A stretch of DNA of 39,424 nucleotides from Candidatus Poribacteria bacterium (GTDB lineage Bacteria > Poribacteria > WGA-4E > WGA-3G): NCBI GenBank assembly GCA_028824125.1, contig JAPPES010000100.1, positions 1 to 39,424 on the forward strand, in the 5' to 3' direction. This document shows, piece after piece, positions 21,496 through 38,858 of the stretch. Within the stretch, counting starts at the first letter, position 1; each line of letters begins with the position of its first letter. A program made the position numbers and the translations under genes. The notes beneath the pieces were generated by a model, which saw nothing but the letters and a program-made list of their open reading frames with translations, searched no databases and was not told the origin of the DNA.

Positions 21496-21630
21496 CGTGC
21501 AAAAAAGTAGAAAAACCTGCTATGCACGCACCACCTCGCCACACAGGAGGGCGTGTAGAGAAAATACTCCTGATGTGAATATTAGTTGAATATTTCCGAC
21601 GTCCTGCGGGGAGACACTAAACCCCCGCAC
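21496..21630 (+). ncRNA. Double-pseudoknot leader element, copy 1
   Basis: The outer stem is CGTGCA (21496-21501)/TGCACG (21523-21528). Pseudoknot 1 has stem GCC (21538-21540)/GGC (21550-21552), and its loop AGGAG (21545-21549) pairs with CTCCT (21567-21571). A short AATATT hairpin lies between. Pseudoknot 2 has GTC (21601-21603)/GAC (21613-21615), and its loop GCGGGG (21606-21611) pairs with CCCCGC (21623-21628). The element ends 18 nt before the type A start at 21648 and overlaps no gene, so it is a 5' leader. Related copies elsewhere keep the pairing with different bases. Confidence 0.75.
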
Positions 21631-21647
21631 ACTCAAAGGAGATTCTT

Positions 21648-22346
21648 ATGAACAAAAAAGCATACTGGGGACTCGGAATTCTTATCAGCATCATCTTCAC
21701 AATTATAGGTTTTGCCTTGATACGCCAATCACAGGAAATAAAACAGCTCAGGCAGGAAGCTGCTAATTCCCTCAAACAGATTGAAACAAACACGGCAAAA
21801 CCGGTAATTGTGGAACAAGAGGATAATAGACCCCCTCCACCAGGTAAATCGTTTGAAGGCGGCGGACACTGGCATGGTGATGAATGGCATGATGCTCCCC
21901 ATACCGCTGATCCAGAAGTTGTTATGGAAGATGGTTTTTCTTTCTCAGACACTATTCCACTTGACGTAACCAATCTATCTCAAGAGGAACTTGTAGGCTA
22001 CTATGTAAAACTTCATAAAGAGAAGTACCCTGATTGCACACAGGACGCAGCTACATTATCAGACGCAAAACGACGCGTGCAGTGGCTTGTAGCTTACAAG
22101 ATACACGCTGAAAAAGAAAGGCAACTTGATATTCAATCCAAAGCCATTGACGCCGAAATTAAAGAGATTGTTGGGGATAGTATTGAAGATTACCATAAAC
22201 GTATCAACTCTCTCAGTGATACCGAGAAAAAATCACTGGAGAAAAGAGTCAAGGCTTTGTATCAACAAATGCTCAGTTTAGATACAAAGTACGAAACATT
22301 GTCTCAGGAAAAACCCAAATATCCTGAAGGCTTACATACCCATTAA
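21648..22346 (+). CDS. Type A membrane-anchored His-motif protein
   Basis: This 232-residue protein has membrane helix YWGLGILISIIFTIIGFALI, then coiled coil QSQEIKQLRQEAANSLKQIE. The Pro-rich His motif PPPPGKSFEGGGHWHGDEWH and DAPH span about residues 62-85. The C-terminal domain is helical and ends KPKYPEGLHTH. The His motif is identical in protein sequence to that at 32467 although many third codon positions differ, so it is under purifying selection. It precedes its type B partner by 16 bp. Metal or ligand binding outside the membrane is an inference. Confidence 0.88.
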   Translation: MNKKAYWGLGILISIIFTIIGFALIRQSQEIKQLRQEAANSLKQIETNTAKPVIVEQEDNRPPPPGKSFEGGGHWHGDEWHDAPHTADPEVVMEDGFSFSDTIPLDVTNLSQEELVGYYVKLHKEKYPDCTQDAATLSDAKRRVQWLVAYKIHAEKERQLDIQSKAIDAEIKEIVGDSIEDYHKRINSLSDTEKKSLEKRVKALYQQMLSLDTKYETLSQEKPKYPEGLHTH

Positions 22347-22362
22347 TTAAGGAGATATACTC

Positions 22363-23220
22363 ATGAAAACTAACACTATTTTCGCTTTGCTTATCCTATT
22401 GATCCCAATTTTAGTTGTAAACACTTTAGATGCCTGCGATTCACAGGAACAAGCTGTTAAAGACGCTCAAGATGAAGTAGATACTGCCGATTACGATTAC
22501 AGACAAAAACGCAGAGCATACTGGAACAACTCAATCTTAGGCCCCCTTGTAAAACCCTCTACAAATATGGGACTATACAATTCAGTAAGAAATGATTACG
22601 AAGCATCACTTATCACATCTGCATATTTAGGTGCTGAAAGAGTACTAAACGAGAAAAAGGATGCACTTAAAAAGGCACAAGAAGCATTAGATGAATGCTA
22701 TCAGAAGTATAATAGATGTCCCGCATGCGACCAAGTACCCGCACATAGCCAAATAACAATGAGTGGGTGTGGACACGTTGACTATTTCTGTAGGAGAGGT
22801 AGACACGATACCCGATCATGCCCCAAAAATGCCAATGGCGACACATGCACTACAATGGAAGGCTTATACCTCACGTGCAGAGAACACACGCACAAATATC
22901 CTGACGCTGTAGGTCCTTGTGGGCATCGGTATGACACAAGCTCATCTGCTGCACACGACCACCGTTCCGAAAAATACCCGTGCGGCAATCATTCTTACTA
23001 TGTATGCCAGTCACAATCGGGTTACGATAGATGGAAACATAGTAACGGGACACTACCATGTGGAAACCATACAGGGTCCCCTTGTAGCGTTGATAGTAGC
23101 CATACAGCATACACAACTTGCCCTAAACACAAGGGTAGAAAATGCGATATTGGCAAGACATATAGATGCTCACCTCATCAGCATACATACACAGGCAGTA
23201 ATTCTGAAGATCAAATTTAA
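22363..23220 (+). CDS. Type B exported Cys/His-repeat protein
   Basis: This 285-residue protein has a signal peptide (MKTNTIFALLILLIPILVVN...DA|C). A coiled coil covers about 25-115 (EQAVKDAQDEVDTADYDYRQ, later AERVLNEKKDALKKAQEAL). CPACDQVPAHSQ is followed by a run of Cys/His knuckles: SGCGHVDYFC, GPCGHRYD, YPCGNHSYYVC, LPCGNHTGSPC and TTCPKHKGRKC. The spacing CGxH-x3-5-C suggests several zinc sites in an oxidising extracytoplasmic compartment, where disulfides are the alternative. Pairs with 21648. Confidence 0.88.
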   Translation: MKTNTIFALLILLIPILVVNTLDACDSQEQAVKDAQDEVDTADYDYRQKRRAYWNNSILGPLVKPSTNMGLYNSVRNDYEASLITSAYLGAERVLNEKKDALKKAQEALDECYQKYNRCPACDQVPAHSQITMSGCGHVDYFCRRGRHDTRSCPKNANGDTCTTMEGLYLTCREHTHKYPDAVGPCGHRYDTSSSAAHDHRSEKYPCGNHSYYVCQSQSGYDRWKHSNGTLPCGNHTGSPCSVDSSHTAYTTCPKHKGRKCDIGKTYRCSPHQHTYTGSNSEDQI

Positions 23221-23228
23221 CACTCTTT

Positions 23229-23260
23229 CCATCAAATCCCCACGCTTTAGCGTGTGGGTA
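23229..23260 (+). terminator. Hairpin after type B gene
   Basis: CCATCAAATCCCCACGCTTTAGCGT continues into GTGGG, forming CCCACGC-ttta-GCGTGtGGG. The same CCATCAAATCCCCA...TTAGCGT stretch follows the type B gene at 31093-31977 (31986 onwards), so the 3' flank was duplicated with the gene. The hairpin also recalls ends of IS200/IS605 elements, but no transposase is present. Confidence 0.45.
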
Positions 23261-23361
23261 CTATGACAGTGTTGTAATACGTTAATGTGTTAATAAATTC
23301 TACTCAATTAGGCAAGTTTGTAACAACGATCTTGTCTAACTGAATACTAAGGAGGTTTATT

Positions 23362-23976
23362 GTGAAACCTAAATTTTTTTGGTCGATTATAATTTTTTGT
23401 AGTTTATTTGTATCACTAAGTATATACATCTTCATTAAAAACAATCATGAACTTGAAGAAATGAAGAAGGTTTTTGAAGCAGATATTTTACAAGCAACTG
23501 AACATTCCGAGTTGAAATCTAATGATAAGCCAGTTGTTACTGAATTGAATTTGCATAGTAATGAGCAGTCCGATACATCTGATATTACTATTCAAAATCA
23601 ACATGATTTAACTGTATCGGATATCGATATTTCAGATATTGAACTGCCTATAATTCACACACCTGTTCCGATTAAACCAGATTTTGATATACCTAATAGC
23701 GTTGATGCAGAAAAACTTAAACATGAATATAAGGTATGGCGTGAGAAACATACAAAAGCCTATAACAATATCATGTCTTTGAGTAAAGATTTGCATAAGA
23801 CGGATGATAAAGGTACAGATTTTGTGAGTTATATGAATTCCTTGACTGAATATCAACGCAATGTATATATGTCAGAAATGAAGCTAAAGATGGAGGCGTA
23901 TAAACTTGCATACTCCGAATTTCAACGGATACAATCTGAAAATCCGATTTTGAAATTTAAAGGAGGCAAGAAATAA
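23362..23976 (+). CDS. Type A-like membrane-anchored protein
   Basis: This 204-residue protein has membrane helix FFWSIIIFCSLFVSLSIYIF and an acidic linker. Its C-terminal helical domain (KHEYKVWREKHTKAYNNIMS, then TDFVSYMNSLTEYQRNVYMS and KLAYSEFQRIQSENP) closely resembles that of 30498 (FFKYINSLTEQEKDEFH, KYAYTKFEMLSTLNP). The His motif is absent. It overlaps its type B partner by one base at AATAATG (stop TAA, start ATG), so translation is coupled. Base composition is more AT-rich than neighbours. Confidence 0.85.
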   Translation: MKPKFFWSIIIFCSLFVSLSIYIFIKNNHELEEMKKVFEADILQATEHSELKSNDKPVVTELNLHSNEQSDTSDITIQNQHDLTVSDIDISDIELPIIHTPVPIKPDFDIPNSVDAEKLKHEYKVWREKHTKAYNNIMSLSKDLHKTDDKGTDFVSYMNSLTEYQRNVYMSEMKLKMEAYKLAYSEFQRIQSENPILKFKGGKK

Positions 23977-24872
23977 TGTTGAATAAAACAACACTCAACA
24001 GAGCTTTACTTTTACCGTTAGTATTTCTATTTGTTATTATATGTTCACTCTCTGCCGTTATATCGTTTTCGAGTGATTCTGAAGATTGGGATTGTCAAGA
24101 CGAAATAGATAAAGTTGCAAAATTAGAAAAGGATCATGCTGAAGCCGTTAAAAAGTATGACAACCAAAATGCTAAAATTTTTCGCATGAAGGTATCTTAC
24201 AAGTATGGTGCAGCTAGTAGAACTGATCCGTTTACTTTAAAGCTTGAAGCGGCAATAAATAAGTTGCAGGAATTATCAGATGAAGCGACACGAATATGGA
24301 AACTATTAGAAGCTGCCAGAAAAGATCTTGATGAATGCACGCCTCCATGTGGTCATTATTATCCACCTGACGAAGCATATATGCATGTAGAGGTCGGTTA
24401 TGAATGTGGCGATCACAAATACTGGACTTGCAAGACAAAAGAATCTGGACATGATGTTACTGAAAGAACTTGTGGTCATACATGGGCAGATTGTCAAAAT
24501 CTGGATAAGTTTTATGATGGACATGCCCGTGTATCATATCAATGTCGTAATCACCATTATTGGCTCTGCTGGGACACAGATAAATTAGATCATAGTGCTC
24601 ATGCAAAAGAGCTTGGATTGTGCGGACATACTTATTGGTTGTGTTTGAAAAATCAAGGTAACCATTATCAATATAATAGGCTTGCTTGTGGTCATACGCT
24701 TTGGAAGTGCAGAGATCCTAAAGGTTGGGGAAACAGGGAAGCACATGGTATTGTTCGATGTCCACATGTTAAATTAGGTAAACGTTGTTATTACAGTTGG
24801 TATGCTTGTAAGTATTCAGGTTCTGGCGATTATCCGAGTCATACTCATTATTACAGTAGGCCTGATATTTAG
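23976..24872 (+). CDS. Type B exported Cys/His-repeat protein
   Basis: This 298-residue protein has a signal peptide (about 1-35) and a coiled coil with KVAKLEKDHAEAVKKYDNQN and LEAARKDLDEC. At least seven Cys/His knuckles follow: PCGHYYP, YECGDHKYWTC, RTCGHTWADC, YQCRNHHYWLC, GLCGHTYWLC, LACGHTLWKC and VRCPHVKLGKRC. Intervening His residues (HDV, HAR, HSAH, NHYQ) could complete four-ligand sites. It is the most regular repeat protein of the array and closely resembles 31093. A strong hairpin follows at 24893-24939. Confidence 0.9.
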   Translation: MLNKTTLNRALLLPLVFLFVIICSLSAVISFSSDSEDWDCQDEIDKVAKLEKDHAEAVKKYDNQNAKIFRMKVSYKYGAASRTDPFTLKLEAAINKLQELSDEATRIWKLLEAARKDLDECTPPCGHYYPPDEAYMHVEVGYECGDHKYWTCKTKESGHDVTERTCGHTWADCQNLDKFYDGHARVSYQCRNHHYWLCWDTDKLDHSAHAKELGLCGHTYWLCLKNQGNHYQYNRLACGHTLWKCRDPKGWGNREAHGIVRCPHVKLGKRCYYSWYACKYSGSGDYPSHTHYYSRPDI

Positions 24873-24892
24873 AAATAATCTTGTATCATGAA

Positions 24893-24939
24893 AATCATAT
24901 CTGTATTAAGGTATTTTTAATCTTAATACAGATATGATT
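24893..24939. terminator. Perfect 18-bp hairpin after type B gene
   Basis: AATCATATCTGTATTAAG (24893-24910) is perfectly complementary to CTTAATACAGATATGATT (24922-24939), with an 11-nt loop. AT-rich, it probably terminates the 23362-24872 unit and stabilises its 3' end. Confidence 0.55.
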
Positions 24940-24964
24940 TATCTTAACAGATAAAGGGATCATA

Positions 24965-25093
24965 ATGGAAATTTTGAAAATAATCGGTTTAGTTGCTCTC
25001 GGCATCTTTGGTTTAATACTACTTATCAAGGACTTATCTGCCTTGACACCGAGTGAAAGAAAGGAATATTTTCGCAGTCGATGGTTCTCATAA
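24965..25093 (+). CDS. Membrane microprotein, 42 residues (copy 1)
   Basis: MEILKIIGLVALGIFGLILL then IKDLSALTPSERKEYF and RSRWFS: one membrane helix plus a short basic tail. A near-identical gene lies at 34376-34501. Conservation of the protein between two dispersed copies makes it a real gene. The ribosome site is an AAGGGA just upstream. Function unknown. Confidence 0.75.
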   Translation: MEILKIIGLVALGIFGLILLIKDLSALTPSERKEYFRSRWFS

Positions 25094-25134
25094 AGTGTTA
25101 ATTTGTAAGCTAAGTATCAAGCATTGTCTTGGCA

Positions 25135-25175
25135 AGATTCTGAATATCCTAAGGACTTGCATATACATTAATTAA
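25135..25175 (+). pseudogene. Tail of a deleted type A gene
   Basis: One frame encodes SEYPKDLHIH then TAA, followed by TTAAGGAGATAT. This matches the end of the type A gene at 21648 (KYPEGLHTH, TAA, TTAAGGAGATAT) immediately before its type B partner. The rest of the type A gene is missing here, so its body was lost by deletion between 25094 and 25135. Confidence 0.6.
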
Positions 25176-25187
25176 GGAGATATTTCA

Positions 25188-25559
25188 ATGAAAACCAAAA
25201 TAGTGTTAGTTTTACTTATTCTATTAATCCCAGTTTTAACTATAGATATTACATCTGCTTGCCAAAATCAGGAGAAAGCAGTCAAAGATGCGGAAGCTGA
25301 AGTTACCATCGCAAAAGTAACCTTTAGAGAAAAGCGAAGGGCATACCTTGCAAATTCAGTTCTTGCACCCCTTGGTTCACATAACACAAGTATAGAGTCA
25401 TCAGAAACAATAACCCAATATTTACGATCTCTCAGAATATTGAAAGAGAAAGAGGATACACTCACAGCTGCACAGACCGCATTAGACAAATGCTATAAAA
25501 GGTACAACGTATGCCCCGCATGTAAGAAAGTTCCTATATGTCCACAATATACCATGTGA
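25188..25559 (+). CDS. Truncated type B protein
   Basis: This 123-residue protein is homologous to the first 130 residues of 22363: a signal peptide MKTKIVLVLLILLIPVLTID, coiled coil EKAVKDAEAEVTIAKV, ALDKCYKRYNVCPACKKVP, then a stop after QYTM. The full-length copy continues with CGH knuckles from the same point. It is therefore a truncated paralogue, possibly a pseudogene, though the signal peptide and coiled coil are intact. Its type A partner is deleted. Confidence 0.7.
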   Translation: MKTKIVLVLLILLIPVLTIDITSACQNQEKAVKDAEAEVTIAKVTFREKRRAYLANSVLAPLGSHNTSIESSETITQYLRSLRILKEKEDTLTAAQTALDKCYKRYNVCPACKKVPICPQYTM

Positions 25560-25597
25560 GGTAATAAAATTGGCAGAACAAGACACGAACACCTTAT

Positions 25598-25728
25598 GCG
25601 TGCAAAGAGTAAAAAACCTACCATGCACGCACCATCTCGCCACACAGGAGGGCGTGTAGAGAAAATACTCCATCCACAATAGTAGGTGGATATTCCTCAG
25701 TCCTGCGGGGAGACATAAAATCCCCGCA
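25598..25728 (+). ncRNA. Double-pseudoknot leader element, copy 2
   Basis: Outer stem GCGTGCA (25598-25604)/TGCACGC (25624-25630), then CTCGCC and GGCGTGTAGAG. The loop GGAG pairs with CTCC (25668-25671). The following hairpin is ATCCAC/GTGGAT, where copy 1 has AATATT/AATATT, so pairing is kept with different bases. Pseudoknot 2 has GTCCTGCGGGGAGAC (25700-25714) pairing with CCCCGC (25722-25727). It lies 36 nt before the gene at 25764. Confidence 0.75.
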
Positions 25729-25763
25729 CATAGAACATTAAGCATTAAAAGGAGAAATACAAA

Positions 25764-26093
25764 ATGCTAATATCAAACAACACAAATATCGTAGATAGTT
25801 CAAAAATTCCACTCGACCAAATTCCACTTGATGAACTAAGTCATATATTACTAAAATTCTTTTCAGAAGAATTAAATAAACAAAACAAAGAATCACTACA
25901 CGCTCCTGCACTAATTTGCTTAGCAGGCGCTGCTGAAAACTCACAGTATTTTGATATACTTGCAGAAGCTTTACAATTGTTAGAGAATCAAGGTTTAGTC
26001 AGAAACACCTTTGATGCCAGCTCACACTATATATATAAGATAACTCGGAAGGGCATTAAGGCCCTAAAGGAGACAAAAAATGATAACCAATAA
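25764..26093 (+). CDS. Predicted winged-helix protein
   Basis: This 109-residue cytoplasmic protein lacks a signal peptide. Its second half, YFDILAEALQLLENQGLV then YKITRKGIKALKET, reads as a winged helix (recognition helix, wing, final helix). The start follows AAAGGAG. A small ORF begins within its stop region at 26080. It may be a local regulator of the array, inferred from position only. Confidence 0.65.
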   Translation: MLISNNTNIVDSSKIPLDQIPLDELSHILLKFFSEELNKQNKESLHAPALICLAGAAENSQYFDILAEALQLLENQGLVRNTFDASSHYIYKITRKGIKALKETKNDNQ

Positions 26094-26202
26094 AAGAGAG
26101 TCAATGGCCCTTAGCATAATTAAAGATTTCGTAATAATAGAAGCCAAAAGGCAATTTTATCATGAGTATAGATTAGAACATCTACTCACCAATAACTATT
26201 AA
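26080..26202 (+). CDS. Small ORF overlapping the winged-helix gene
   Basis: The 40-codon frame MITNKRESMALSIIKDFVII then EAKRQFYHEYRLEHLLTNNY starts 14 bp before the upstream stop with an AAGGAG site, suggesting coupled translation. It has a basic, helical composition. Not recognised. Confidence 0.45.
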   Translation: MITNKRESMALSIIKDFVIIEAKRQFYHEYRLEHLLTNNY

Positions 26203-26225
26203 GAAGTATTTAAAAGAAGTTTCTT

Positions 26226-26900
26226 ATGAACAAGAAAATGTACTTAGGGCTTGGAATTCTCATTATCTTCGTCACAATTGCCGGTTTTGTCTTTATACAA
26301 CGATCACAAAAAATAGGACAGCTAAAGCAAGAGGCCACTGATTCCATAAAACAACTTAAGGAGAGCAGAGCAAAACGGGCAATTGTGAACGGAAATACAC
26401 AGCATGATGCTCCCCATAAAGCACCACCTATAGACCCCGAACCAGGAAGCCTTACAGCACCCAAAGGACATTATTATCCCACCAACGAGGAAACAGGCGA
26501 CTACTACCTCAATGAGGATGGGGAACCAATACTTATGAAGAAAGGCCAACCCTTTATAACAATAGAAACTTTTATCGGATTTGCACCTACAAAGGAAGTC
26601 TATAACCAGTATCTTGAACTCTCTACTCGATATGAAGAAGCTAAAAACTCAGGCAATAGTCCGAAAGCATCCGAATTGAAATCCAAAATAGATCAGATAG
26701 TAGCGGATTCTCAAGGAGAATTACCAGAAATTTCTACAATCATTGTATTTGATGCAGATGTTACCCAAGAGAAGAAAGAGGCAACACTCAAACATATAAA
26801 TGAGGTTGAAAAGACAGCACTCAAACAGGTATTAATGGATATGGAACTTATCCATCTTTACAGAGGTGGACATCTAACAGAACAATCAGACTCACATTAA
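26226..26900 (+). CDS. Type A membrane-anchored protein, GHYY/DG subclass
   Basis: This 224-residue protein has membrane helix YLGLGILIIFVTIAGFVFI and coiled coil QRSQKIGQLKQEATDSIKQL. A domain follows with PKGHYYPTNEETGDYYLNED, GEPILMKKGQPFITIETFIG and FAPTKEVYNQY. The same domain recurs in 26913 and 29638, each with Gly-His/Tyr, DG, a Gly-(E/D)P strand and a F(A/R)PT helix start. The N terminus is shared with the HWH subclass, so the family is modular: common anchor, different distal domains. Reading starts 23 bp after the previous small ORF. Confidence 0.82.
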   Translation: MNKKMYLGLGILIIFVTIAGFVFIQRSQKIGQLKQEATDSIKQLKESRAKRAIVNGNTQHDAPHKAPPIDPEPGSLTAPKGHYYPTNEETGDYYLNEDGEPILMKKGQPFITIETFIGFAPTKEVYNQYLELSTRYEEAKNSGNSPKASELKSKIDQIVADSQGELPEISTIIVFDADVTQEKKEATLKHINEVEKTALKQVLMDMELIHLYRGGHLTEQSDSH

Positions 26901-26912
26901 AAGGAGCATACC

Positions 26913-27743
26913 ATGAATCGTAAAACGTATTGGGGACTTGGCATCCTCGCAACGCTCATCATCAGTTTTGGCGCATTTGTGTTCTACGGCCAATATACAC
27001 AGATGCAACAGCTGAAACAGATTACTGAGCAAAATAAGAAAGAACTTGAACCAAAAGAGAAACCTGTTACAAAAGTTAACAGAAAACCTACAGATAACAA
27101 GCAGGATAATACTCCGCAAGAGACAATACCCGATCCCCTTGCAGGTTTAACATGGCAAGAACGGACGGATAAGCTATACCCTGCTTTAAAATTATCTTCA
27201 CTGGACTGGGAAAATCTAACTGATAATGAAATTGTGACCCTCCTCAATAGAAAGGAGCAATGGAATTCTATTACACAGGATCAACGCGACACTGTCGTAA
27301 GAGAATTCTATAAACGTGCATTAGGCAAAATGCCTCCACCCGAAGGGCATTTCTATGTGTGTAATCCAGATGGAAGCGTGAAGCTCGGTGAAGATGGACT
27401 ACCTATTTACTACAAACACGGTGAACCCGTCTTTAAAATCAAAACAATGATCGGATTTAGACCTACACGCGAACAGATTATTATACATAAAACATTGCTT
27501 GACCTATACGAGGATGCAGTCAATAGAGATGATCAAGAGACTGCCGAAATGGTTGACTCAGAGATTCAAGCATTAGAGGAACACGCAGTTGGGGAAATTC
27601 CACTTATCACTGCCAGCACCCAGTCACCTGGAGGTGTCAATCGATCTGAATGGCGGAGAAAACTCAGTGAGCGTGCCAGAGAAGAATACAGAAAAATGGG
27701 CATAGAATACGTCTACGACTATACTTCCAAAGGAATTTACTAA
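26913..27743 (+). CDS. Type A membrane-anchored protein, GHFY/DG subclass
   Basis: This 276-residue protein has membrane helix YWGLGILATLIISFGAFVFY and a coiled-coil stalk. A unique insert (LTWQERTDKLYPALKLSS...) is followed by the shared domain PPPEGHFYVCNPDGSVKLGE, DGLPIYYKHGEPVFKIKTMI and GFRPTREQ, then a helical tail. PPPE before the domain parallels PPPPG before the HWH motif. It lies 12 bp after 26226, a tandem duplication of type A genes without a type B between. Confidence 0.82.
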   Translation: MNRKTYWGLGILATLIISFGAFVFYGQYTQMQQLKQITEQNKKELEPKEKPVTKVNRKPTDNKQDNTPQETIPDPLAGLTWQERTDKLYPALKLSSLDWENLTDNEIVTLLNRKEQWNSITQDQRDTVVREFYKRALGKMPPPEGHFYVCNPDGSVKLGEDGLPIYYKHGEPVFKIKTMIGFRPTREQIIIHKTLLDLYEDAVNRDDQETAEMVDSEIQALEEHAVGEIPLITASTQSPGGVNRSEWRRKLSERAREEYRKMGIEYVYDYTSKGIY

Positions 27744-27788
27744 CCAACCTAATATAAGAAAATTAATCAATAATCAAAGGAGATTATT

Positions 27789-29145: not shown

Positions 29146-29187
29146 TTACCTTACGTTTAGGAAACCAAAATAACCTGCACAACCAAC

Positions 29188-29215
29188 GTCCTGCGGGGAG
29201 ACGCACATTCCCCGC
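29188..29215 (+). promoter_or_regulatory. Leader element, second pseudoknot only
   Basis: GTCCTGCGGGGAGAC at 29188-29202 followed by CCCCGC (29210-29215). Located 55 nt upstream of the gene at 29270. The upstream CTCGCC pseudoknot is not recognisable here. Confidence 0.65.
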
Positions 29216-29269
29216 ACTTGAAAAAGTACCCACACAGAATAGATATTAAATCTATAAAGGAGAATTACA

Positions 29270-32087: not shown

Positions 32088-32130
32088 GTTTGGTAGGGAA
32101 CGCGTCAGGATGACGCGTTCCCTACCAAAC
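32088..32130. repeat. Perfect 20-bp palindrome with 3-nt loop
   Basis: The arm 32088-32107 (GTTTGGTAGGGAACGCGTCA) is exactly complementary to 32111-32130, with loop gga. There is no U-tract. Such a long, error-free palindrome in an intergenic gap suggests a REP/MITE-like dispersed element or a very recent insertion. Confidence 0.65.
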
Positions 32131-32167
32131 ACAATACGCATATCAACTCCAAAAGGAGATTAAACCC

Positions 32168-32470: not shown

Positions 32471-33132
32471 CCAAGAAAATGTACGCGGGACTCGGAGTTC
32501 TCATCATCTTCCTCACAATTATAGGTTTTGTCTTTATGCACCAATCACGAGAAATAGAGCAGCTACGGCAAGAAGCTGCGGATTCTCTCAAACAGATTGA
32601 AACGAGCACGCCAAAACCGGTAATTGTGGAAAAAGGGAACACCCGACCACCCCCACCTGGAAAATCATTTGAAGGCGGTGGACATTGGCACGGCGATGAA
32701 TGGCACGACGCTCCACATATAGATGCCCCTACCAATGATATTGCACAACAGGATAAAGTCAAGCTGTTAACACCTGAAGAAATCAACCAAGTTGCAATAA
32801 GCCAAAATGCTCGTGAACAGGCACTTAAAGATCATGAGACTATTGCAATGTACTATCACAACGAAAAAGTGTATTACAGTAAGTATGAAAGGTTACGTGA
32901 AGATAATAAGAAAATACAGGAGGAATTCGATAAATTTTATGTTCCTCAAGACAAGATTAACGAGCTATCAGAAATAGAAAAAATACAGCATGCTGATAGG
33001 CTCAAATTAATTCTGAGAAAGTTAGATTTGAATCAAGCAAGATTCGATACCTTAAAAAAGAATAAACCTGTACGTCCCGATGAGGCTCTACATCGGTATC
33101 AGGAATACAGCAAACTTGCAACCAGCAAATAA
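32467..33132 (+). CDS. Type A membrane-anchored His-motif protein
   Basis: This 221-residue protein has membrane helix YAGLGVLIIFLTIIGFVFM and coiled coil QSREIEQLRQEAADSLKQIE. The Pro-rich His motif PPPPGKSFEGGGHWHGDEWH-DAPH (61-84) is identical to 21648. The C-terminal domain ends NKPVRPDEALHRYQEYSK, like 19364, so the protein combines the N-terminal half of one paralogue with the C-terminal half of another. This indicates recombination or mosaic evolution. Type B partner follows after 11 bp. Confidence 0.88.
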   Translation: MTKKMYAGLGVLIIFLTIIGFVFMHQSREIEQLRQEAADSLKQIETSTPKPVIVEKGNTRPPPPGKSFEGGGHWHGDEWHDAPHIDAPTNDIAQQDKVKLLTPEEINQVAISQNAREQALKDHETIAMYYHNEKVYYSKYERLREDNKKIQEEFDKFYVPQDKINELSEIEKIQHADRLKLILRKLDLNQARFDTLKKNKPVRPDEALHRYQEYSKLATSK

Positions 33133-33143
33133 AGGAGATTTCA

Positions 33144-34016
33144 ATGAAAGTTATTAAAGTTCTATCCATAGTATTAATTGCATCACTTATATCAACATCT
33201 AATCTTAATTTTGCTAATGAAAATAGTAGCGACGAATTTCCATGTAAATCTAAAAAAGAGATACTTGATAAAAGAAAAGAGGCACTTGATCAAGCACAAG
33301 CTGCTTATGATACAGCCACAAGAAGATTAATTACCTTTGGTATTACAGGACTTGTAAGATCAATGGGCAAAGACTCTACTGATAGACAACAAATGGACGA
33401 CGGAAAGGCCACTGGCAAAGATATGCTCGACAGAAAGGCCGCCAAAGCAGCTCTGGATCAAGCACAGACTGATCACGATCAAGCAGAGCAAGATTACAAT
33501 GACTGTAGAGAAAAACACAGATGCGAGGGGTGCGGACAGGTCCCTAAGCATCCTTTACATGCTACCTGCTGGAATAGTGGCAATGGATGCAATGCACCTA
33601 ACGTTAGGCAATGCACACATGATTGCGATTATGAAGATTCAAAAATGATTACTGGAGCGTGCGGACATAAATATCCAAAAGTTCACGCAAGAATGCATCG
33701 TCAAATCGGGTATGATTGTGGAAAACATTCATGGTTCTGGTGTAAGCAAGATTATGATAGCTTAGGTCACGTTGAATCTTACTATAACTGCTACTCTCAT
33801 TCATATCATGAATGCGATAATCCTTCAGATGAAACAAAAGAAGGACATAAACATCAAATGTATCCATGCGGACTTCATGGTGATTACAAATGCCAACACG
33901 CTGCAAAGGAAGCAAGTCATCCAGCAAGAAAACTGTGTCCGAAACAAAATGGCAAAGCATGCCTTTACAAGTATCATAGAAAATGTTCGCCACATGTGCA
34001 TTATTATGATTATTAG
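33144..34016 (+). CDS. Type B exported Cys/His-repeat protein
   Basis: This 290-residue protein has a signal peptide (MKVIKVLSIVLIASLISTSN...FA) and a long Ala/Asp-rich coiled coil (KRKEALDQAQAAYDTATRRL, AALDQAQTDHDQAEQDYNDC). Then CEGCGQVPKHP, matching CPACDQVP in 22363, leads into knuckles GACGHKYP, YDCGKHSWFWC, YNCYSHSYHEC, YPCGLHGDYKC, KLCPKQNGKAC and RKCSPHVHYY. The C-terminal CSPHxHxY ending is shared with 22363. Pairs with 32467. The stop is followed by another leader hairpin at 34037. Confidence 0.9.
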   Translation: MKVIKVLSIVLIASLISTSNLNFANENSSDEFPCKSKKEILDKRKEALDQAQAAYDTATRRLITFGITGLVRSMGKDSTDRQQMDDGKATGKDMLDRKAAKAALDQAQTDHDQAEQDYNDCREKHRCEGCGQVPKHPLHATCWNSGNGCNAPNVRQCTHDCDYEDSKMITGACGHKYPKVHARMHRQIGYDCGKHSWFWCKQDYDSLGHVESYYNCYSHSYHECDNPSDETKEGHKHQMYPCGLHGDYKCQHAAKEASHPARKLCPKQNGKACLYKYHRKCSPHVHYYDY

Positions 34017-34036
34017 AAACGCATGCCCTCTAACCT

Positions 34037-34059
34037 GCGGGGAGACACAAACTCCCCGC
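34037..34059 (+). promoter_or_regulatory. Leader element, second pseudoknot only
   Basis: CCTGCGGGGAGAC (34034-34046) followed by CCCCGC (34054-34059), 55 nt before the gene at 34115. The GTC of the short stem is changed to AAC here, which would break the GTC/GAC helix but keep the GCGGGG/CCCCGC pairing. Confidence 0.55.
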
Positions 34060-34114
34060 ATTTACAACTAACAACACACCCAAAAAGGTGTATCAACCCT
34101 ATAGGAGAAATAAA

Positions 34115-34333
34115 ATGAGATACGGTGCATTCTGCGCTACTTGTGGCATAAACTTCAATATTACACCAGCACACAAGAATGAACACATGGGAATGGCGCA
34201 AAACCATAGCCGAGAACAAGAACATTATTGCATAGTCTACAGCTTAGTATCTACTGATACAAAATCACCAGACGAAGCAGAAGCTGAATTTGATATAGTA
34301 GCAAGATTTCATTGCGGGAAACAGATCAAATAG
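34115..34333 (+). CDS. Small Cys-containing hypothetical protein
   Basis: The ATG at 34115 follows TAGGAGAAAT and gives 72 residues: MRYGAFCATCGINFNITPAH, then NHSREQEHYCIVYSL, ending FHCGKQIK. CxxC, an isolated HYC and HC resemble a small zinc site. No signal peptide. Not recognised. Confidence 0.6.
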   Translation: MRYGAFCATCGINFNITPAHKNEHMGMAQNHSREQEHYCIVYSLVSTDTKSPDEAEAEFDIVARFHCGKQIK

Positions 34334-34375
34334 TATTAACACTCCACTTCAACACCCTTTACTAAGGAGATTCCA

Positions 34376-34501
34376 ATGGAAATTTTGAAAACAATCGGTT
34401 TGGTCGCTCTTGCCATCTTTGGTTTAATACTGCTTATTAAGGACTTATCCGCTATGACACCGAGTGAAAGAAAAGAATATTTTCGGCGGCCGTGGTTCTA
34501 A
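34376..34501 (+). CDS. Membrane microprotein, 41 residues (copy 2)
   Basis: MEILKTIGLVALAIFGLILL then IKDLSAMTPSERKEYF and RRPWF, with an AAGGAGA ribosome site. It differs from the copy at 24965 at only a handful of residues, with several silent nucleotide changes. One membrane helix with a basic C-terminal tail. Function unknown. Confidence 0.78.
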   Translation: MEILKTIGLVALAIFGLILLIKDLSAMTPSERKEYFRRPWF

Positions 34502-34575
34502 AAATATAAAAAACGATGAATCGGAATTTTACTTCAGATTGTATAAATAGAGACAAACCCACCCCTAACGCCTTA

Positions 34576-34712
34576 TGTGTACGGGATTTACCTTAGGTCT
34601 GACAGCGCACACCGGCTCGCCAAGCAGGGGCGTGTATTAACAATACCTGCACATTTAACTGTTTCAATAGAATTAATAGTTTTAGAACGCCTGTGGGGAG
34701 CGTATCCCCGCA
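34576..34712 (+). ncRNA. Double-pseudoknot leader element, copy 3
   Basis: Outer stem TGTGT/GCACA. Pseudoknot 1 has GCC (34619-34621)/GGC (34629-34631), and loop GCAGG (34624-34628) pairs with CCTGC (34646-34650). Pseudoknot 2 has CGC (34688-34690)/GCG (34700-34702), where other copies have GTC/GAC, a compensatory change. The loop GTGGGG (34693-34698) pairs with CCCCGC (34706-34711) with one G-U pair. It lies about 60 nt before the gene at 34773. Confidence 0.75.
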
Positions 34713-34772
34713 CTCAACATCGGCAAGGTACGGTATGTAGCGTGCTCGTGCCTGCCCACTTTTAAGATAGAG

Positions 34773-34994
34773 ATGAATATATTGAATAAACTAAATAAAC
34801 TATCTGAGAAGATGGATATATCGGAGAAACTAACGAAACTCCCCAAATCTGTACAGTGGTTGATTTTTATCGCTTTCTGTATCATTATTCCGTTGCTGCC
34901 TATCTCCGATTTTCATCAAGGCATGCTTGCGGGGTTTGTTATTATGATATTCATCCTCATAGACAGCGTAGAGAAGAAAGACGAATCAAAATAA
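34773..34994 (+). CDS. Small membrane protein
   Basis: This 73-residue protein has an amphipathic N terminus (MNILNKLNKLSEKMDISEKL) followed by WLIFIAFCIIIPLLPI and GMLAGFVIMIFILIDSV, two membrane helices, with a charged KKDESK tail. The ribosome site is weak. It lies 14 bp before the lipoprotein gene at 35009. Not recognised. Confidence 0.6.
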   Translation: MNILNKLNKLSEKMDISEKLTKLPKSVQWLIFIAFCIIIPLLPISDFHQGMLAGFVIMIFILIDSVEKKDESK

Positions 34995-35008
34995 AAAGGA
35001 AATATAAA

Positions 35009-35746
35009 ATGTTAAAAAGAGTTGCATCAAATTGTGTTGTTTGGATATTTCTATTTGTAATATTTTGTTTAGGATGTGCTAACAGTACATTGAATAAATT
35101 TGTCAATAATCTTTCTCAAGAACAAGTATATGATTTTCATAAGACACGATGGGGAATGTCACAAGCACAAGTAGAATATTCTGAAATAGAGCAAAAGAGT
35201 ATAATAGTTTACAGAACACCAGAGACGCTTATTTATAAATGTAGGTTAGGTGATGTTAAAGCATTGCGCATATACACATTCAAGAACAACAATCTGCGGT
35301 GCGCAGGGTATGTCACGCAATATCCGGTAAAAGGCAAAGTAGACAACAGATTTCATGTATTAAGCGAAGAAAAATACGGCACACCTACATTTAATCAATC
35401 CAACGGTTATGTATGGATACACGGCAATTCCGTTATCTATGCAAAATCGTATACATCGTATGTAAGATTAGTTGTTCCATCAACTTTACCTACGTCAAGA
35501 TATATAATATCTACTGTAGGTGGAATGTTTGCCGAATTAGACTCAGGTTTGCCAAGCAAACGTTCTACACACCCAAATATAATACATAGGTGGAGCAGTG
35601 TATGGAGTTATACGGACAGTAAATTTTATGATGAAATCTACGATGTAAAATTTCCGTCACATGAACTATCGCGTGCTGAACAAGTGTTGTTTGGTTTAAA
35701 AGAAGAACGAGTTATTTTAGATATGATACAAGTGTCGGTGTTTTAG
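35009..35746 (+). CDS. Predicted lipoprotein
   Basis: The ATG at 35009 after AAAAGGAAA gives 245 residues. MLKRVASNCVVWIFLFVIF is followed by the lipobox CLGC, so Cys is about residue 22. The frame extends upstream to 34856 but overlaps the previous gene and would bury the signal peptide. The mature part has TRWGMSQAQVEYSE, as in small lipoproteins of unknown function whose TPWGMSxxxV motif opens a beta-rich domain. Not recognised further. Confidence 0.75.
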   Translation: MLKRVASNCVVWIFLFVIFCLGCANSTLNKFVNNLSQEQVYDFHKTRWGMSQAQVEYSEIEQKSIIVYRTPETLIYKCRLGDVKALRIYTFKNNNLRCAGYVTQYPVKGKVDNRFHVLSEEKYGTPTFNQSNGYVWIHGNSVIYAKSYTSYVRLVVPSTLPTSRYIISTVGGMFAELDSGLPSKRSTHPNIIHRWSSVWSYTDSKFYDEIYDVKFPSHELSRAEQVLFGLKEERVILDMIQVSVF

Positions 35747-35781
35747 TCTTGAATTATGCCGCAAATTTAAAGGAGAAATAA

Positions 35782-35937
35782 ATGTGTAATAAAGTATCAA
35801 ATAATCCAGATATTGTAGAGAAGTTTATAGAAATTTTGCACGGTTATCAGTATCTAACGTATGATAAAAACAGGTCTGAAGAAGCCGAAGATTGTCTATA
35901 CGCTAAAACAGAACTCGCGATCGATGGACGCGTGTAG
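35782..35937 (+). CDS. Small ORF ending inside a leader element
   Basis: MCNKVSNNPDIVEKFIEILH then GYQYLTYDKNRSEEAEDCLY and AKTELAIDGRV (51 residues), after an excellent AAAGGAG site. Its last codons and TAG stop lie in the CTCGCG...CGCGTGTAG stem of leader copy 4, so ribosomes finishing this ORF would unfold that pseudoknot. Not recognised. Confidence 0.6.
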   Translation: MCNKVSNNPDIVEKFIEILHGYQYLTYDKNRSEEAEDCLYAKTELAIDGRV

Positions 35938-36009
35938 AGAAAGTTTCCATCAACTTAACTTAGGTTTTTACTTAATAACAATGTCCTGCGGGGAGACAAA
36001 AAACCCCGC
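35914..36009 (+). ncRNA. Double-pseudoknot leader element, copy 4
   Basis: Pseudoknot 1 has GCG (35917-35919)/CGC (35929-35931), replacing GCC/GGC of other copies. Loop GATGGA (35923-35928) pairs with TCCATC (35946-35951). Pseudoknot 2 has GTC/GAC at 35983-35997, and GCGGGG (35988-35993) pairs with CCCCGC (36004-36009). It lies about 70 nt before the LamG gene. Both helices of pseudoknot 1 differ in sequence from copies 1-3 but keep the pairing. Confidence 0.75.
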
Positions 36010-36077
36010 ATTTTAGGATAATAATATGAAAAGACTGAACATTTTACATTCAGAATTTTCACACAGGAGAAAAGAAA

Positions 36078-36881
36078 ATGAAACACGGAAGACTATATAT
36101 CATAATGATAGGTGTTGTGCTAAGTACTATCATTTTTACACTGTCAATCACGGGTTTGGTCTCAGCGGCTGTGATTGATAAAAACACTGTTGAGTTTGCC
36201 TATCTCTTTGATGAGGGAGCAGGTGTCGTTGCGAAAGATGCCTCTGTGAATGGGCGAGATGGTGCTATATCCGGTGCGAAATACGTGGAAGGTAAGTTTG
36301 GAACGTGCTTGGAATATGATGGCGTAGACGACAATCTGGTTGCGACAGATTACTTCGGCGTTGGTGGCATTAACCCCAGAACAACAGTTTTCTGGTTTAA
36401 ATCAAGAGAGACACGGGAACATTCATGGGTAAAATGGGGCCCGGATTCTCCGGGGGAAAAATACTATATTCGCGCGCACGTAAGAGGCGCAGCGTGCAAT
36501 TTGAGAGTTGAGGTCAACGGTGGCAATAATTTTGGGACAGACAACGTGTGTGATGGCGAGTGGCATCATTGTGCTGTTGTCTTTCCGAAAGGTTCAGATG
36601 CTGTGAAAGATCATGATCTCTATGTTGATGGTAAACTTCAAGTCAAAGAGGGTATTGAAAAAGCAATGAACACGAACGATCGAGTCCAAGAAGTCAACAT
36701 GGGGAATTTTCTGGCAAGTCATAGTTTTATGTTCGGTCTTTTTGATGAGGTAGCTGTCTTCAATGTGGATTTGACTTTAGATCAGATCAATGCCATTCGG
36801 GAACAGGGTTTAGGTCAGGCACTCGGTGTTGATCCGCGCGGTAAATTAGCCACGAATTGGGCGATGATTAAGACGTATTAG
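36078..36881 (+). CDS. Secreted LamG-domain protein
   Basis: This 267-residue protein has a signal peptide (MKHGRLYIIMIGVVLSTIIF...VSAA). FAYLFDEGAGVVAKDASVNG, RDGAISGAKYVEGKFG, CLEYDGVDDNLVA, DGEWHHCAVVF and DHDLYVDGKLQV are the successive strands of a LamG/concanavalin-like domain, ending LFDEVAVFNVDLTLDQI. Such domains bind glycans or proteins and are abundant in Poribacteria-like genomes. The start follows AGGAGAA. Confidence 0.9.
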   Translation: MKHGRLYIIMIGVVLSTIIFTLSITGLVSAAVIDKNTVEFAYLFDEGAGVVAKDASVNGRDGAISGAKYVEGKFGTCLEYDGVDDNLVATDYFGVGGINPRTTVFWFKSRETREHSWVKWGPDSPGEKYYIRAHVRGAACNLRVEVNGGNNFGTDNVCDGEWHHCAVVFPKGSDAVKDHDLYVDGKLQVKEGIEKAMNTNDRVQEVNMGNFLASHSFMFGLFDEVAVFNVDLTLDQINAIREQGLGQALGVDPRGKLATNWAMIKTY

Positions 36882-36905
36882 TTCCACGAATCAATAGAAG
36901 TGCAA

Positions 36906-36971
36906 ACCCGCGAACCTTACGGTGAGGAATAGCCGCCATTATCGTCCTGCGGGGAGACGCGAAACTCCCGC
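36906..36971 (+). promoter_or_regulatory. Leader element, copy 5 (divergent first half)
   Basis: Pseudoknot 2 is clear: GTC (36944-36946)/GAC (36956-36958), with GCGGG pairing to CCCGC (36967-36971). The upstream part is divergent; CCT...AGG with loop CGG and a downstream CCG may be a shortened pseudoknot 1. It ends 24 nt before the start at 36996. Confidence 0.55.
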
Positions 36972-36995
36972 ACTCATATAAACAAGGAGGATTTT

Positions 36996-38144
36996 ATGTT
37001 ACGTAAAATAGTAATGATACTCATCATGGTATTCAGTAGCGTCATAATGGGTTGTGAGAGAATGCAGGTGCCGTTGATCCCTGTAAAGGGTACGTTGAAA
37101 GTTGGTGTGCTGCAACCACCCAGTTATTATCCAAGTTACACCAAAGGTGTAGAACTTGCGCAAGCGGAAATTAACCAAAGCGGTGGGATACTCGGTATGG
37201 ATGTGGCACTTGTGCAGCGAGACGAACGGACCGATACCTTTGCAGAAACGCTCACGGAATTCGTTGAAGTTGAAAAGGTTGTCGGTCTTATCGGTCCCGT
37301 TTTTTCCAGTCATGCTGTCAGAATAGCCCCGGATCTTCAACTGCCGATACTTGCGGGTGCAACGGATGCGAATAGGGTCACTCAGACGAACGATTTTATT
37401 TTTCTTGTGGGTGGTTCCAATGCTTTACATGCCCAACACATCGCGCAATTTGCTGTCAGCCAACTGAGATCACAAACGGCAGCTATGGTTTGGCAAGCGG
37501 ATGATGTTTATTCTATGGGACTCGTTGATGCTTTTGATGTGAGGTTCCAAGAACTCAGTGGTGATATTGTTGGCCGTCATACATATCAAGTCGGGGCGAC
37601 CACCTTTACTGAACAACTTACATCTATCCACGCACTGCAACCGGATGTGGTTTTCCTTGCGAGTTTTCCACCTGAAGTGCCGCTGTTCATCGAAGCAGCA
37701 CGGGACATGGGAATTGAATCTGTTTTTATTGGTGGAGACGGCATGGAAGACCCTGAAAATATGTTGGGCACTTTGACGGATAACACACCCTTGGAGGGCA
37801 CATACTATACAACAAACCTGGATCTGACATCAGATAATCCGAATATACGTCAATTCACTGATGCGTATCAATCGGAATATGGAGAGACGCCTGACGGTGT
37901 TGCTGCATCAGGGTATGATGCACTCCATCTATTGAAAGTCGCAATTGAAGCAGCCGGCACAACAGAACCTGTCGCTGTGCGGGATGCGTTAGCGAAGGTA
38001 ACGAACTATAGCGGTGCGACCTATATTGCGAACTTTGATGTGAACCGGCATCCTGTCAAAGGTGTTGGCATCATGAAGATTGAAAATGGAATGATAGCCC
38101 CGCATACGTTTGTTTCTCAAGATGCACCGAATGCGTCCGAATGA
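36996..38144 (+). CDS. ABC transporter substrate-binding lipoprotein (LivJ-like)
   Basis: This 382-residue protein has a lipobox VIMGC (Cys about residue 19). The mature part fits the type I periplasmic binding fold (Peripla_BP_6): LKVGVLQPPSYYPSYTKGVE, AEINQSGGILGMDVAL, VVGLIGPVFSSHAVRIAPDL, IPTxG-like LPILAGATDANRVTQ, DVVFLASFPPEVPLFIEAAR and GVAASGYDALHLLKVAIEAA. It is expected to bind branched-chain amino acids, amides or similar ligands. No permease or ATPase gene is adjacent, so it is an orphan binding protein here. Confidence 0.93.
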   Translation: MLRKIVMILIMVFSSVIMGCERMQVPLIPVKGTLKVGVLQPPSYYPSYTKGVELAQAEINQSGGILGMDVALVQRDERTDTFAETLTEFVEVEKVVGLIGPVFSSHAVRIAPDLQLPILAGATDANRVTQTNDFIFLVGGSNALHAQHIAQFAVSQLRSQTAAMVWQADDVYSMGLVDAFDVRFQELSGDIVGRHTYQVGATTFTEQLTSIHALQPDVVFLASFPPEVPLFIEAARDMGIESVFIGGDGMEDPENMLGTLTDNTPLEGTYYTTNLDLTSDNPNIRQFTDAYQSEYGETPDGVAASGYDALHLLKVAIEAAGTTEPVAVRDALAKVTNYSGATYIANFDVNRHPVKGVGIMKIENGMIAPHTFVSQDAPNASE

Positions 38145-38167
38145 CAATGTGTACTGGGTTCTAAGGT

Positions 38168-38246
38168 CTCGCCCCCGTGGAGGCGTGTCCAAATATCCGC
38201 GGCTCTGAAATTTTAGCACGTCCTGCGGGGAGACGCAAAACTCCCG
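38168..38246 (+). ncRNA. Double-pseudoknot leader element, copy 6
   Basis: Pseudoknot 1 has GCC (38171-38173)/GGC (38182-38184). Loop CCGTGGA (38175-38181) pairs with TCCGCGG (38196-38202), including one wobble. Pseudoknot 2 is GTCCTGCGGGGAGAC (38220-38234), with GCGGG pairing to CCCGT (38243-38247, one wobble). It lies 25 nt before the GTG start at 38272. Confidence 0.72.
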
Positions 38247-38271
38247 TAATAACGAGTAAGGAGGAGATGAC

Positions 38272-38442
38272 GTGGCTTTTATTTTGGCATTGATTTATTT
38301 TCTCTTGTGTATCATGAATCTGATATACAACATTTTCATAGAAAAATACCAACATGGATGGGAAGCATTATTGATCATGGGCATCACTGGGATCGGTCTC
38401 TGGTTGTCGTGGACTGTGATGAAAAGTAGTTTTAAAAAATGA
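38272..38442 (+). CDS. Small two-helix membrane protein (GTG start)
   Basis: From GTG at 38272, preceded by AAGGAGGAG: VAFILALIYFLLCIMNLIYN, then IFIEKYQHGWEALLIMGITG, then IGLWLSWTVMKSSFKK (56 residues). Two membrane helices with a positive tail. An ATG at 38267 in another frame stops quickly, which supports the GTG. Not recognised. Confidence 0.6.
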   Translation: MAFILALIYFLLCIMNLIYNIFIEKYQHGWEALLIMGITGIGLWLSWTVMKSSFKK

Positions 38443-38444
38443 TT

Positions 38445-38472
38445 GTCTTGCGGGGAGGCGAAAACTCCCCGC
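38445..38472 (+). promoter_or_regulatory. Leader element, second pseudoknot only
   Basis: GTC (38445-38447)/GGC (38457-38459, wobble-compatible), with loop GCGGGG (38450-38455) pairing to CCCCGC (38467-38472). It begins at the end of the previous ORF and ends 19 nt before the start at 38491. Confidence 0.6.
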
Positions 38473-38490
38473 ATGCTCATAGGTTGGACA

Positions 38491-38763
38491 ATGCTATTAT
38501 CACGAAAAACAAAAGTCATAGAGGCACTCAATTATGTTCTAAAAGACTATAGTTACTTGGTATACGACATATCGAAATCTCGGAATAAACCGTATCTTCA
38601 GGTAAGTGTTATCAATCAAGGTCACACGAAGCACGATATTAGCGTTGCTGGTTACGTCTGTCGCGAATTAGAACAGATGACAGGAGAATGTTTTTACGTC
38701 CGTGCTTATGTGTGTGCGGATGTGTGGACACATTTCAGAATCAGTGAAGATAAACTATTATGA
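38491..38763 (+). CDS. Hypothetical protein
   Basis: This 90-residue protein starts at MLLSRKTKVIEALNYVLKDY. The frame opens earlier, at 38443, but that part is the leader element. It continues SYLVYDISKSRNKPYLQVSV and TGECFYVRAYVCADVWTHF. It looks like a small globular alpha/beta protein without a signal peptide. The ribosome site is weak. Not recognised. Confidence 0.6.
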   Translation: MLLSRKTKVIEALNYVLKDYSYLVYDISKSRNKPYLQVSVINQGHTKHDISVAGYVCRELEQMTGECFYVRAYVCADVWTHFRISEDKLL

Positions 38764-38782
38764 CCTGTTTTTCCTGATCTTA

Positions 38783-38858
38783 TGTGTGCGGATGATGTCA
38801 GATCGAAGTTACCGCACGCACCGTCTCGCCCCGCGGAGGCATGTCCAAATATCCGCGG
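38783..38858 (+). ncRNA. Leader element, copy 7 (first pseudoknot only)
   Basis: Strong outer stem TGTGTGCGG (38783-38791)/CCGCACGCA (38812-38820). Pseudoknot 1 has GCC (38828-38830)/GGC (38838-38840), and loop CCGCGGA (38831-38837) pairs perfectly with TCCGCGG (38852-38858). GTCCTGCGGGGAGAC does not follow. The next start is at 39032, so this copy is farther from its gene than the others. Confidence 0.65.

Follow-up and report, generated by a model that had tools for sequence, protein, structure and literature searches.

Whether a short motif recurring between the genes of a poribacterial contig marks a genuine structured RNA, and what such an RNA might do, was the question raised by a stretch of 39,424 nucleotides (nt) from Candidatus Poribacteria bacterium (contig JAPPES010000100.1 of assembly GCA_028824125.1; this whole stretch is hereafter called the window). 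The original prediction had placed six copies of a pseudoknotted leader RNA there, each with a covarying pairing between a hairpin loop and a downstream strand. A conserved pseudoknotted fold upstream of unrelated genes was borne out by the wider search described below; two things had been missed, namely a second pseudoknot, close to the ribosome-binding site, and the connection with exported proteins. The element, which would span about 35–130 nt and be nearly limited to one Candidatus Poribacteria genus, is read here, at a probability of roughly 0.55, as a new family of leader RNAs that act in cis on their mRNA, with translation as the probable point of control. It is an RNA family new to Rfam 15, and its kind (pseudoknotted cis-acting leader) is a known one.

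The first module, designated PK-A (pseudoknot A), is predicted to be an H-type pseudoknot: a hairpin with stem P1 (CUCGCN/N'GCGUG, including a U.U mismatch), the loop of which would pair past an A-rich linker with a downstream strand to give stem P2, mostly 4–8 base pairs (bp) long and freely varying in sequence. All six window copies existed (Table 1; each PK-A row starts at CTCGC), the starts first reported being those of a 5' hairpin in four of them. Every proposed loop/downstream pair was confirmed; in all six copies, the 3' part of the loop was the side complementary to the downstream strand, and this pairing directly adjoined the P1 3' strand. The second P1 position was a conserved U.U mismatch, and copy 6 displayed a C.A mismatch inside P1 (GGCATGT). 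Several details had to be amended: the C-G to G-C swap at the closing pair was real and occurred within the window in copy 4 only; the linker was present, its corrected size from P1 stem to downstream strand being TGT plus 7 or 10 nt, with that strand starting 10 or 13 nt past the stem; and the six copies counted as about five independent ones because copies 1 and 2 were near-identical (95% over 60 nt). The linkers after TGT were AGAGAAAATA in two copies, ATTAACAATA, AGAGAAAGTT, and CCAAATA in two. A mechanical scan of both window strands for the P1-TG motif gave six matches, namely five of the six copies and one site pairing over at most 4 bp.

The outer stem of the original prediction was indeed a hairpin in four of the six copies, and it proved to be separate from the pseudoknot, lying 5' of it. 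This hairpin, P0, preceded PK-A in 10 copies (nine of them after TTA), over which 91% of cells were paired and six of nine pairs were changed on both sides; the arms of the P0 of L122_3023 differed (TGAGCAGGG/CCCTGCTCA).

The P2 pairing was then judged by covariation in two wider alignments. In both, none of the 500 shuffles and none of the slid controls reached the observed score: (i) for 35 sequences, the score was 0.552, the shuffles gave 0.166 ± 0.019, and the slid controls did not exceed 0.124 and (ii) for 22 sequences with distinct loop hexamers, the corresponding values were 0.591, 0.180 ± 0.027, and 0.145. L127 (3 bp), L116_14882 (degenerate PK-A), and L121 (6-nt insertion) were excluded from these sets. 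Over the 35 sequences, 94.9% of P1 cells (U.U position left out) and 84.5% of P2 cells were paired, and all seven P2 pairs had changes on both sides. The second P1 position was non-standard in 32 of 35 (U opposite U), and the innermost P1 pair varied as CG (17), GC (9), UG (4), UA (2), and other (3). A loop formed runs of at least 5 bp with its own downstream strand in 86% of cases (19/22) and with the strand of another element in 17%, a comparison over elements mostly gathered with models rewarding P2 pairing. Because the models reward that pairing, a blind control was run over 18 genomes with the pattern CTCGCN{6,14}GCGTGTN{2,7}AAATA, which carries no P2 information: it gave 16 matches, 14 of them distinct, compared with one for the reversed pattern, and 12 of the 14 made 5–7 continuous P2 pairs. 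Both non-pairing matches fell within open frames (520 and 169 codons long).

The range of the family was explored with two covariance models, R1 (built from the six window copies, with P2 paired and P1 treated as sequence) and R2 (built from 35 copies and run on 84 genomes of the phylum). In the genome to which the window belongs, R1 had 11 matches at E < 1e-4, six of them inside the window. With R2 at E ≤ 0.001, under strict filters and with rough model E-values, at least 15 of 84 phylum genomes were matched, PK-A being found in at least 14 of 18 genomes of its own genus and at least 1 of 66 elsewhere in the phylum; the single genome outside the genus (G025) belonged to the same family, and its element L126 held both modules. 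The R2 matches at this threshold included three coding repeats, L124, L128, and L129, which lay inside long open frames and were dropped together with the weaker L134; the genomes of the three kept other copies. Elements were clustered in the window, G003:C33, G010:C100, and G010:C343, and tandem PK-A copies stood about 100 nt apart in G010 (15147 and 15047). Phyla beyond Poribacteria were covered by the exact pattern alone, for which seven of nine matching stretches in named genomes were Candidatus Poribacteria, and one pattern scan of a viral collection gave two matches (L136 and L137), neither with a 5-bp P2 by eye. The non-poribacterial exact matches L078, L080, L136, and L137 were read as chance: none had a 5-bp P2 by eye (4 bp at most in L136), and all scored 16–19 bits with R2, below the curated copies except L132_4135 (14.8 bits). 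A PK-A subtype with GGCGATA or GGCGAGA replacing GGCGTGT was seen in L048, L034, L117 (5547), L120 (3235), and L123, all without the second pseudoknot; three of these (L048, L117, and L120) had a hairpin rich in A and T, of the form GACTATAGCACATA..TATGTGTTATAGTC, in its place.

This second pseudoknot, PK-B, had the consensus nGTC-Y-TGCGGGG-A-GACn-AAAA-CCCCGCA and stood behind PK-A in 33 of 55 elements at a score cut of 20, its stem beginning 17–41 nt past P2. A script accepted 50 of 59 candidates, of which those scoring at least 20 were kept (33 elements plus four PK-Bs occurring alone, termed solos); subtraction of four length variants and three duplicates left an alignment of 30 sequences. 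In it, the stem TGCGGGG/CCCCGCA was paired in 98.1% of cells (variants including TGTGGGG/CCCCACA and TGCGCGG/CCGCGCA), and nGTC, just 5' of the stem, paired with loop GACn in 90.8%. Six pairs were changed on both sides versus 1.8 ± 0.8 in shuffles, and covariation was 0.231 versus 0.134 ± 0.012. The nGTC/GACn helix rests on few changes because its inner three pairs were nearly invariant; the outer pair occurred as CG, UG, AU, and UA and was unpaired in 8 of 30, and window copy 3 displayed CGC/GCG in place of GTC/GAC, two compensatory changes. The strand order a-b-a'-b', one-base first loop, and A-rich third loop look like those of an H-type pseudoknot.

A model of PK-B, R3, gave nine matches at E ≤ 0.042 on the + strand of the window, and within the genus PK-B turned up in 12 of 18 genomes, compared with 2 of 66 elsewhere in the phylum (E ≤ 0.01). 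Among the 33 elements with PK-B, a start codon was found for 28, and it lay 14–37 nt past the PK-B end in 12 of these. PK-B also occurred alone, with four solos in the window and further ones elsewhere; in 10 of 13 loci inspected, no PK-A could be seen by eye ahead of PK-B, and for eight of these 10 solo PK-Bs, inspection showed a Shine-Dalgarno sequence with a start codon no more than about 40 nt farther on. A bistable switch between PK-A CTCGC and PK-B GCGGGGAG, complementary in many copies and by inspection not conserved, was rejected because the compensated variants TGCGCGG/CCGCGCA lose complementarity to CTCGC. Two further observations were made beside solo PK-Bs: (i) a segment of about 40 nt, AAACCCGCGAACCTTNCGGTGAGGAATAGNCGCCATTATC (window 36904–36943), preceded one of them and was near-identical in L174 and L175 from two genomes of another genus, so that it is perhaps a second conserved leader module and (ii) tRNA T-arm-like stretches GGTTCGACTCCT stood before solos L173 and L177, at which loci ARAGORN found no tRNA.

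The most conserved association with a gene was that at a lipoprotein locus, between the lipoprotein gene and a gene known by its C-terminal sequence only. Of the 18 genomes from the genus, 12 carried the lipoprotein gene (E ≤ 1e-10), and PK-A accompanied it in all 12, once with a 6-nt insertion. All 12 had the same P2 strands, and six of them the same complete PK-A core, although the sequence farther upstream differed in at least two genomes (L008 and L027); this pattern argues for selection on the predicted PK-A and for its linkage with the gene. The locus adds nothing to the covariation since P2 is invariant there. A PK-B segment of about 95 nt was present in 2 of 12 only, and PK-B can therefore be gained or lost. 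In leaders at this locus such as those of L028, L032, and L038, GAGATATGCCC behind PK-A could pair with either near GGGCA or distal GGGCATATCTC, both conserved, and a bistable leader is possible there.

As to orientation and product, the nearest downstream gene lay on the strand of the element in 37 of 42 cases (mechanical calls of open reading frames [ORFs]; 11 of the 42 were orthologues of one locus). The nearest upstream gene was co-directional in 36 of 42, which equals the genomic background of 86% (164/191), and upstream co-direction was dropped as intercistronic evidence for that reason. A Shine-Dalgarno-like site plus start was found for 43 of 54 elements, and 33 of the 43 proteins displayed a hydrophobic N-terminal segment. 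With the 11 orthologues of one locus removed, exported-type products amounted to 22 of 32 versus 14 of 50 in a background of 16 stretches from the complete genome G009 (p = 0.0005); with three shared genes removed as well and one further shared gene kept, they were still 19 of 29 (p = 0.002). A Pfam scan of 10 downstream proteins encoded on other genomes or contigs gave families above cut-off for five, these being LRR, LamG, dockerin, cohesin, Ig-like, FlgD_ig, and periplasmic binding protein. An upstream protein with an FlgD-Ig/sorting-tail-like end was noted by eye in 10 of 60 rows, with FlgD_ig confirmed by Pfam for one. Within 21300–39424, 18 terminator-like sites were found, with shuffles giving 13.5 ± 3.3; two of the 18 (29407 and 30563) were + strand sites, neither of which lay at a window element, and attenuation by an intrinsic terminator is therefore unlikely there. 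A role of the P2 3' strand (CTCC) as anti-Shine-Dalgarno sequence was discarded, since by inspection it fits few copies only.

Table 1. Predicted RNA features in the window and the genes behind them
Feature	Position	Strand	Description
P0, copy 1	21496..21528	+	CGTGCA/TGCACG
PK-A, copy 1	21535..21572	+	P1 CTCGCC/GGCGTG; P2 CAGGAG/CTCCTG; linker TGTAGAGAAAATA
PK-B, copy 1	21600..21629	+	CGTC-C-TGCGGGG-A-GAC..CCCCGCA; R3 39.1 bits
Gene behind copy 1	21648..22346	+	membrane-anchored protein, paralogous set
P0, copy 2	25597..25631	+	TGCGTGCA/TGCACGCA
PK-A, copy 2	25636..25671	+	P2 GGAG/CTCC; near-identical to copy 1
PK-B, copy 2	25699..25728	+	R3 match
Gene behind copy 2	25764..26093	+	DUF4364 below Pfam cut-off; no hydrophobic N-terminus
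Solo PK-B	29187..29216	+	upstream of ORF 29270-29611; R3 match
Solo PK-B	34031..34060	+	upstream of ORF starting 34115; R3 match
P0, copy 3	34576..34611	+	from sequence and P0 alignment
PK-A, copy 3	34616..34650	+	P2 GCAGG/CCTGC
PK-B, copy 3	34687..34712	+	GTC/GAC replaced by CGC/GCG; R3 match
Gene behind copy 3	34773..34994	+	small protein, hydrophobic segment
PK-A, copy 4	35914..35951	+	P1 CTCGCG/CGCGTG; P2 GATGGA/TCCATC
PK-B, copy 4	35982..36010	+	TGTC/GACA; R3 match
Gene behind copy 4	36078..36881	+	exported LamG-domain protein
Solo PK-B	36943..36972	+	upstream of periplasmic-binding-protein gene 36996-38144; R3 match
PK-A, copy 5	38168..38202	+	P2 CCGTGGA/TCCGCGG
PK-B, copy 5	38219..38248	+	R3 match
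Gene behind copy 5	38272..38442	+	small membrane protein, GTG start
Solo PK-B	38444..38473	+	upstream of ORF with ATG at 38491; R3 match
P0, copy 6	38783..38820	+	TGTGTGCGG/CCGCACGCA
PK-A, copy 6	38825..38858	+	P2 CCGCGGA/TCCGCGG; no PK-B behind
Gene behind copy 6	39032..39331	+	99-amino-acid protein, no hydrophobic N-terminus

The window contained two other regions of note: (i) an array of related genes at 19364–34016 (+), their paralogy recognized by BLASTP, which encoded membrane-anchored proteins (19364, 21648, 23362, 26226, 26913, 29638, 30498, and 32467) and exported Cys/His-rich proteins (22363, 23976, 31093, 33144, and the shorter 25188) and (ii) CRISPR-Cas genes at 714–9896 (-), with matches to Cas1, Cas3, DevR/Csa2-like, and Cas6. 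A Pfam scan of array genes 19364, 20068, 21648, and 22363 gave no match. A long inverted repeat, TTTGGTAGGGAACGCGTC..GACGCGTTCCCTACCAAA, at 32088–32130 lay 5' of ORF 32168 and represents another type of leader hairpin within this array.

On the reading preferred here, the element would be transcribed together with the gene behind it and would regulate that gene as RNA, at the step of translation or mRNA stability; PK-A, with its conserved core and interchangeable P2, would be the recognition module, PK-B would be the output module setting ribosome access or mRNA lifetime, and the genes controlled would be mostly those of exported proteins. Several results weigh against it. In P2, the outer two columns were unpaired in 24 and 10 of the 35 sequences; in P1, most pairs were near-invariant, with covariation at the innermost pair only. 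The count of pairs changed on both sides was matched by 172–263 of 500 PK-A shuffles (263 for 35 sequences and 172 for 22) because the columns vary so much, and further pair types were matched by 8–23 of 500, leaving two of five measures not cleanly separated; the cell counts and the covariation score do exceed the shuffles. Most alignment rows had been collected by models rewarding P2 pairing, with the register set by N padding. The downstream neighbor was a gene on the - strand in 3 of 42 cases and absent in 2 of 42, and the background level of upstream co-direction makes a link to the 3' end of the upstream gene compatible with the position. The export background came from one genome, and export was called by a simple hydrophobicity rule rather than a signal-peptide predictor. 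PK-B was missing from 22 of 55 elements and, at the lipoprotein locus, from 10 of 12 copies, and it is therefore not essential.

That no Rfam family would claim the copies held true for the window and 16 further loci: Rfam 15 at gathering score gave no match in the window or in the 16 loci with other copies, and at E up to 10 no family covered PK-A of any copy within 21400–39424. A freshwater-2 match at 25685–25766 (E 7.6; 23.4 bits versus a gathering score of 49.9) spanned PK-B of copy 2 and the ribosome-binding site, and a preQ1-II match at 25976–26082 (E 8.6) fell outside the copies. Many candidate bacterial RNAs have reportedly been described in a large survey, where description of this element is excluded only as far as Rfam adopted it. 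A literature search on the phylum named no leader RNA or riboswitch in titles and abstract openings, and the element was described in none of the literature found, as far as the parts covered go, including those of PMC11625349 and PMC5087111. The preQ1 class I riboswitch is, from the part of the account covered, a small H-type pseudoknot with an A-rich minor-groove sequence in bacterial leaders, often on the Shine-Dalgarno sequence (PMC11625349). PK-A resembled it as a small H-type pseudoknot with an A-rich third loop in leader position; the element differed in its conserved sequences, in the exported-protein rather than queuosine genes downstream, in a P2 strand without a Shine-Dalgarno sequence, in the second pseudoknot often behind, and in matching no Rfam family. 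Queuosine families were absent from the 10 downstream proteins scanned and from the genes behind copies 1, 2, 4, and 6. The SAM-II riboswitch, reportedly also an H-type pseudoknot aptamer in a leader, is said to have other conserved loops, and the element again had no Rfam match.

These likenesses bear on a special case of the leader reading, in which PK-A would bind a metabolite through its conserved core, in the manner of preQ1-I aptamers, and PK-B would be the expression platform of a small-molecule riboswitch. A conserved predicted RNA fold did precede genes on the coding strand, as it would in a riboswitch, and an H-type pseudoknot whose third loop is rich in A, with a conserved core and a free P2, fits this case, as do the tandem copies in G010 and the leader position. 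Known aptamers are usually widespread, however, and this element is nearly restricted to one genus; the downstream proteins examined had export rather than a metabolic pathway in common, no Rfam relative was found, and no conserved alternative PK-A/PK-B pairing was seen by inspection, so a small-molecule riboswitch appears rather doubtful. Its more specific version, a new riboswitch class of two serial H-type pseudoknots in which the first would sense a small molecule and the second gate the ribosome-binding site, coordinating exported proteins of LamG/LRR/dockerin type, possibly on a host-derived or cell-density signal, is unlikely. A protein might instead be the ligand: a host protein, a ribosomal protein, or an antitermination factor of the processive kind would sit on PK-A, adjusting transcription or stability from a leader or intercistronic position. 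The placement between genes, with exported proteins encoded on either side in several cases, and the lack of an intrinsic terminator at the window elements would suit such a factor; the closeness of many PK-B copies to the ribosome-binding site points to translation instead, and no factor is known to us for the element, none having been searched for. This explanation is tentative at best, and somewhat on the unlikely side.

Spread by copying, as a mobile repeat or integron-like cassette boundary with RNA structure as a by-product, would account for the clusters, the co-oriented ORF arrays, and the near-identity of copies 1 and 2, and the element does recall reported attC sites of integrons as a structured repeat between co-oriented small ORFs. 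It differs from them in its leader position, in one locus kept in 12 of 12 genomes, and in pairing kept as the sequence changes, 19 of 22 distinct loop hexamers pairing with their own downstream strand over at least 5 continuous bp; the sense orientation to the next gene also speaks against this origin. Inspection of the listed copies revealed no attC core sites or boxes, with no integrase search made, and copying as the explanation is improbable. Less probable still is a self-cleaving ribozyme or processing site. A compact pseudoknot with conserved core nucleotides would suit one, and the pistol ribozyme reportedly shares a hairpin loop pairing downstream past an A-rich linker; by inspection, however, its third stem with conserved cleavage site was not seen in the element, nor was any conserved cleavage-site-like stretch beside PK-A. 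The pistol model of Rfam matched neither the window nor the 16 other loci, in line with the lack of any family over the window PK-A copies.

The reading as cis-acting leader RNAs would add an RNA family with strong covariation support to a phylum for which the titles and abstract openings found name no leader RNA or riboswitch. The tandem-pseudoknot design, with an interchangeable P2 and a conserved core, is small enough for direct structural and binding study. Exported proteins of the kinds found downstream are frequently associated with sponge-host contact, and the genus consists, to our knowledge, of uncultured sponge-associated bacteria; since the genes point to exported proteins, the element may thus give a way into how these uncultured bacteria control their genes.

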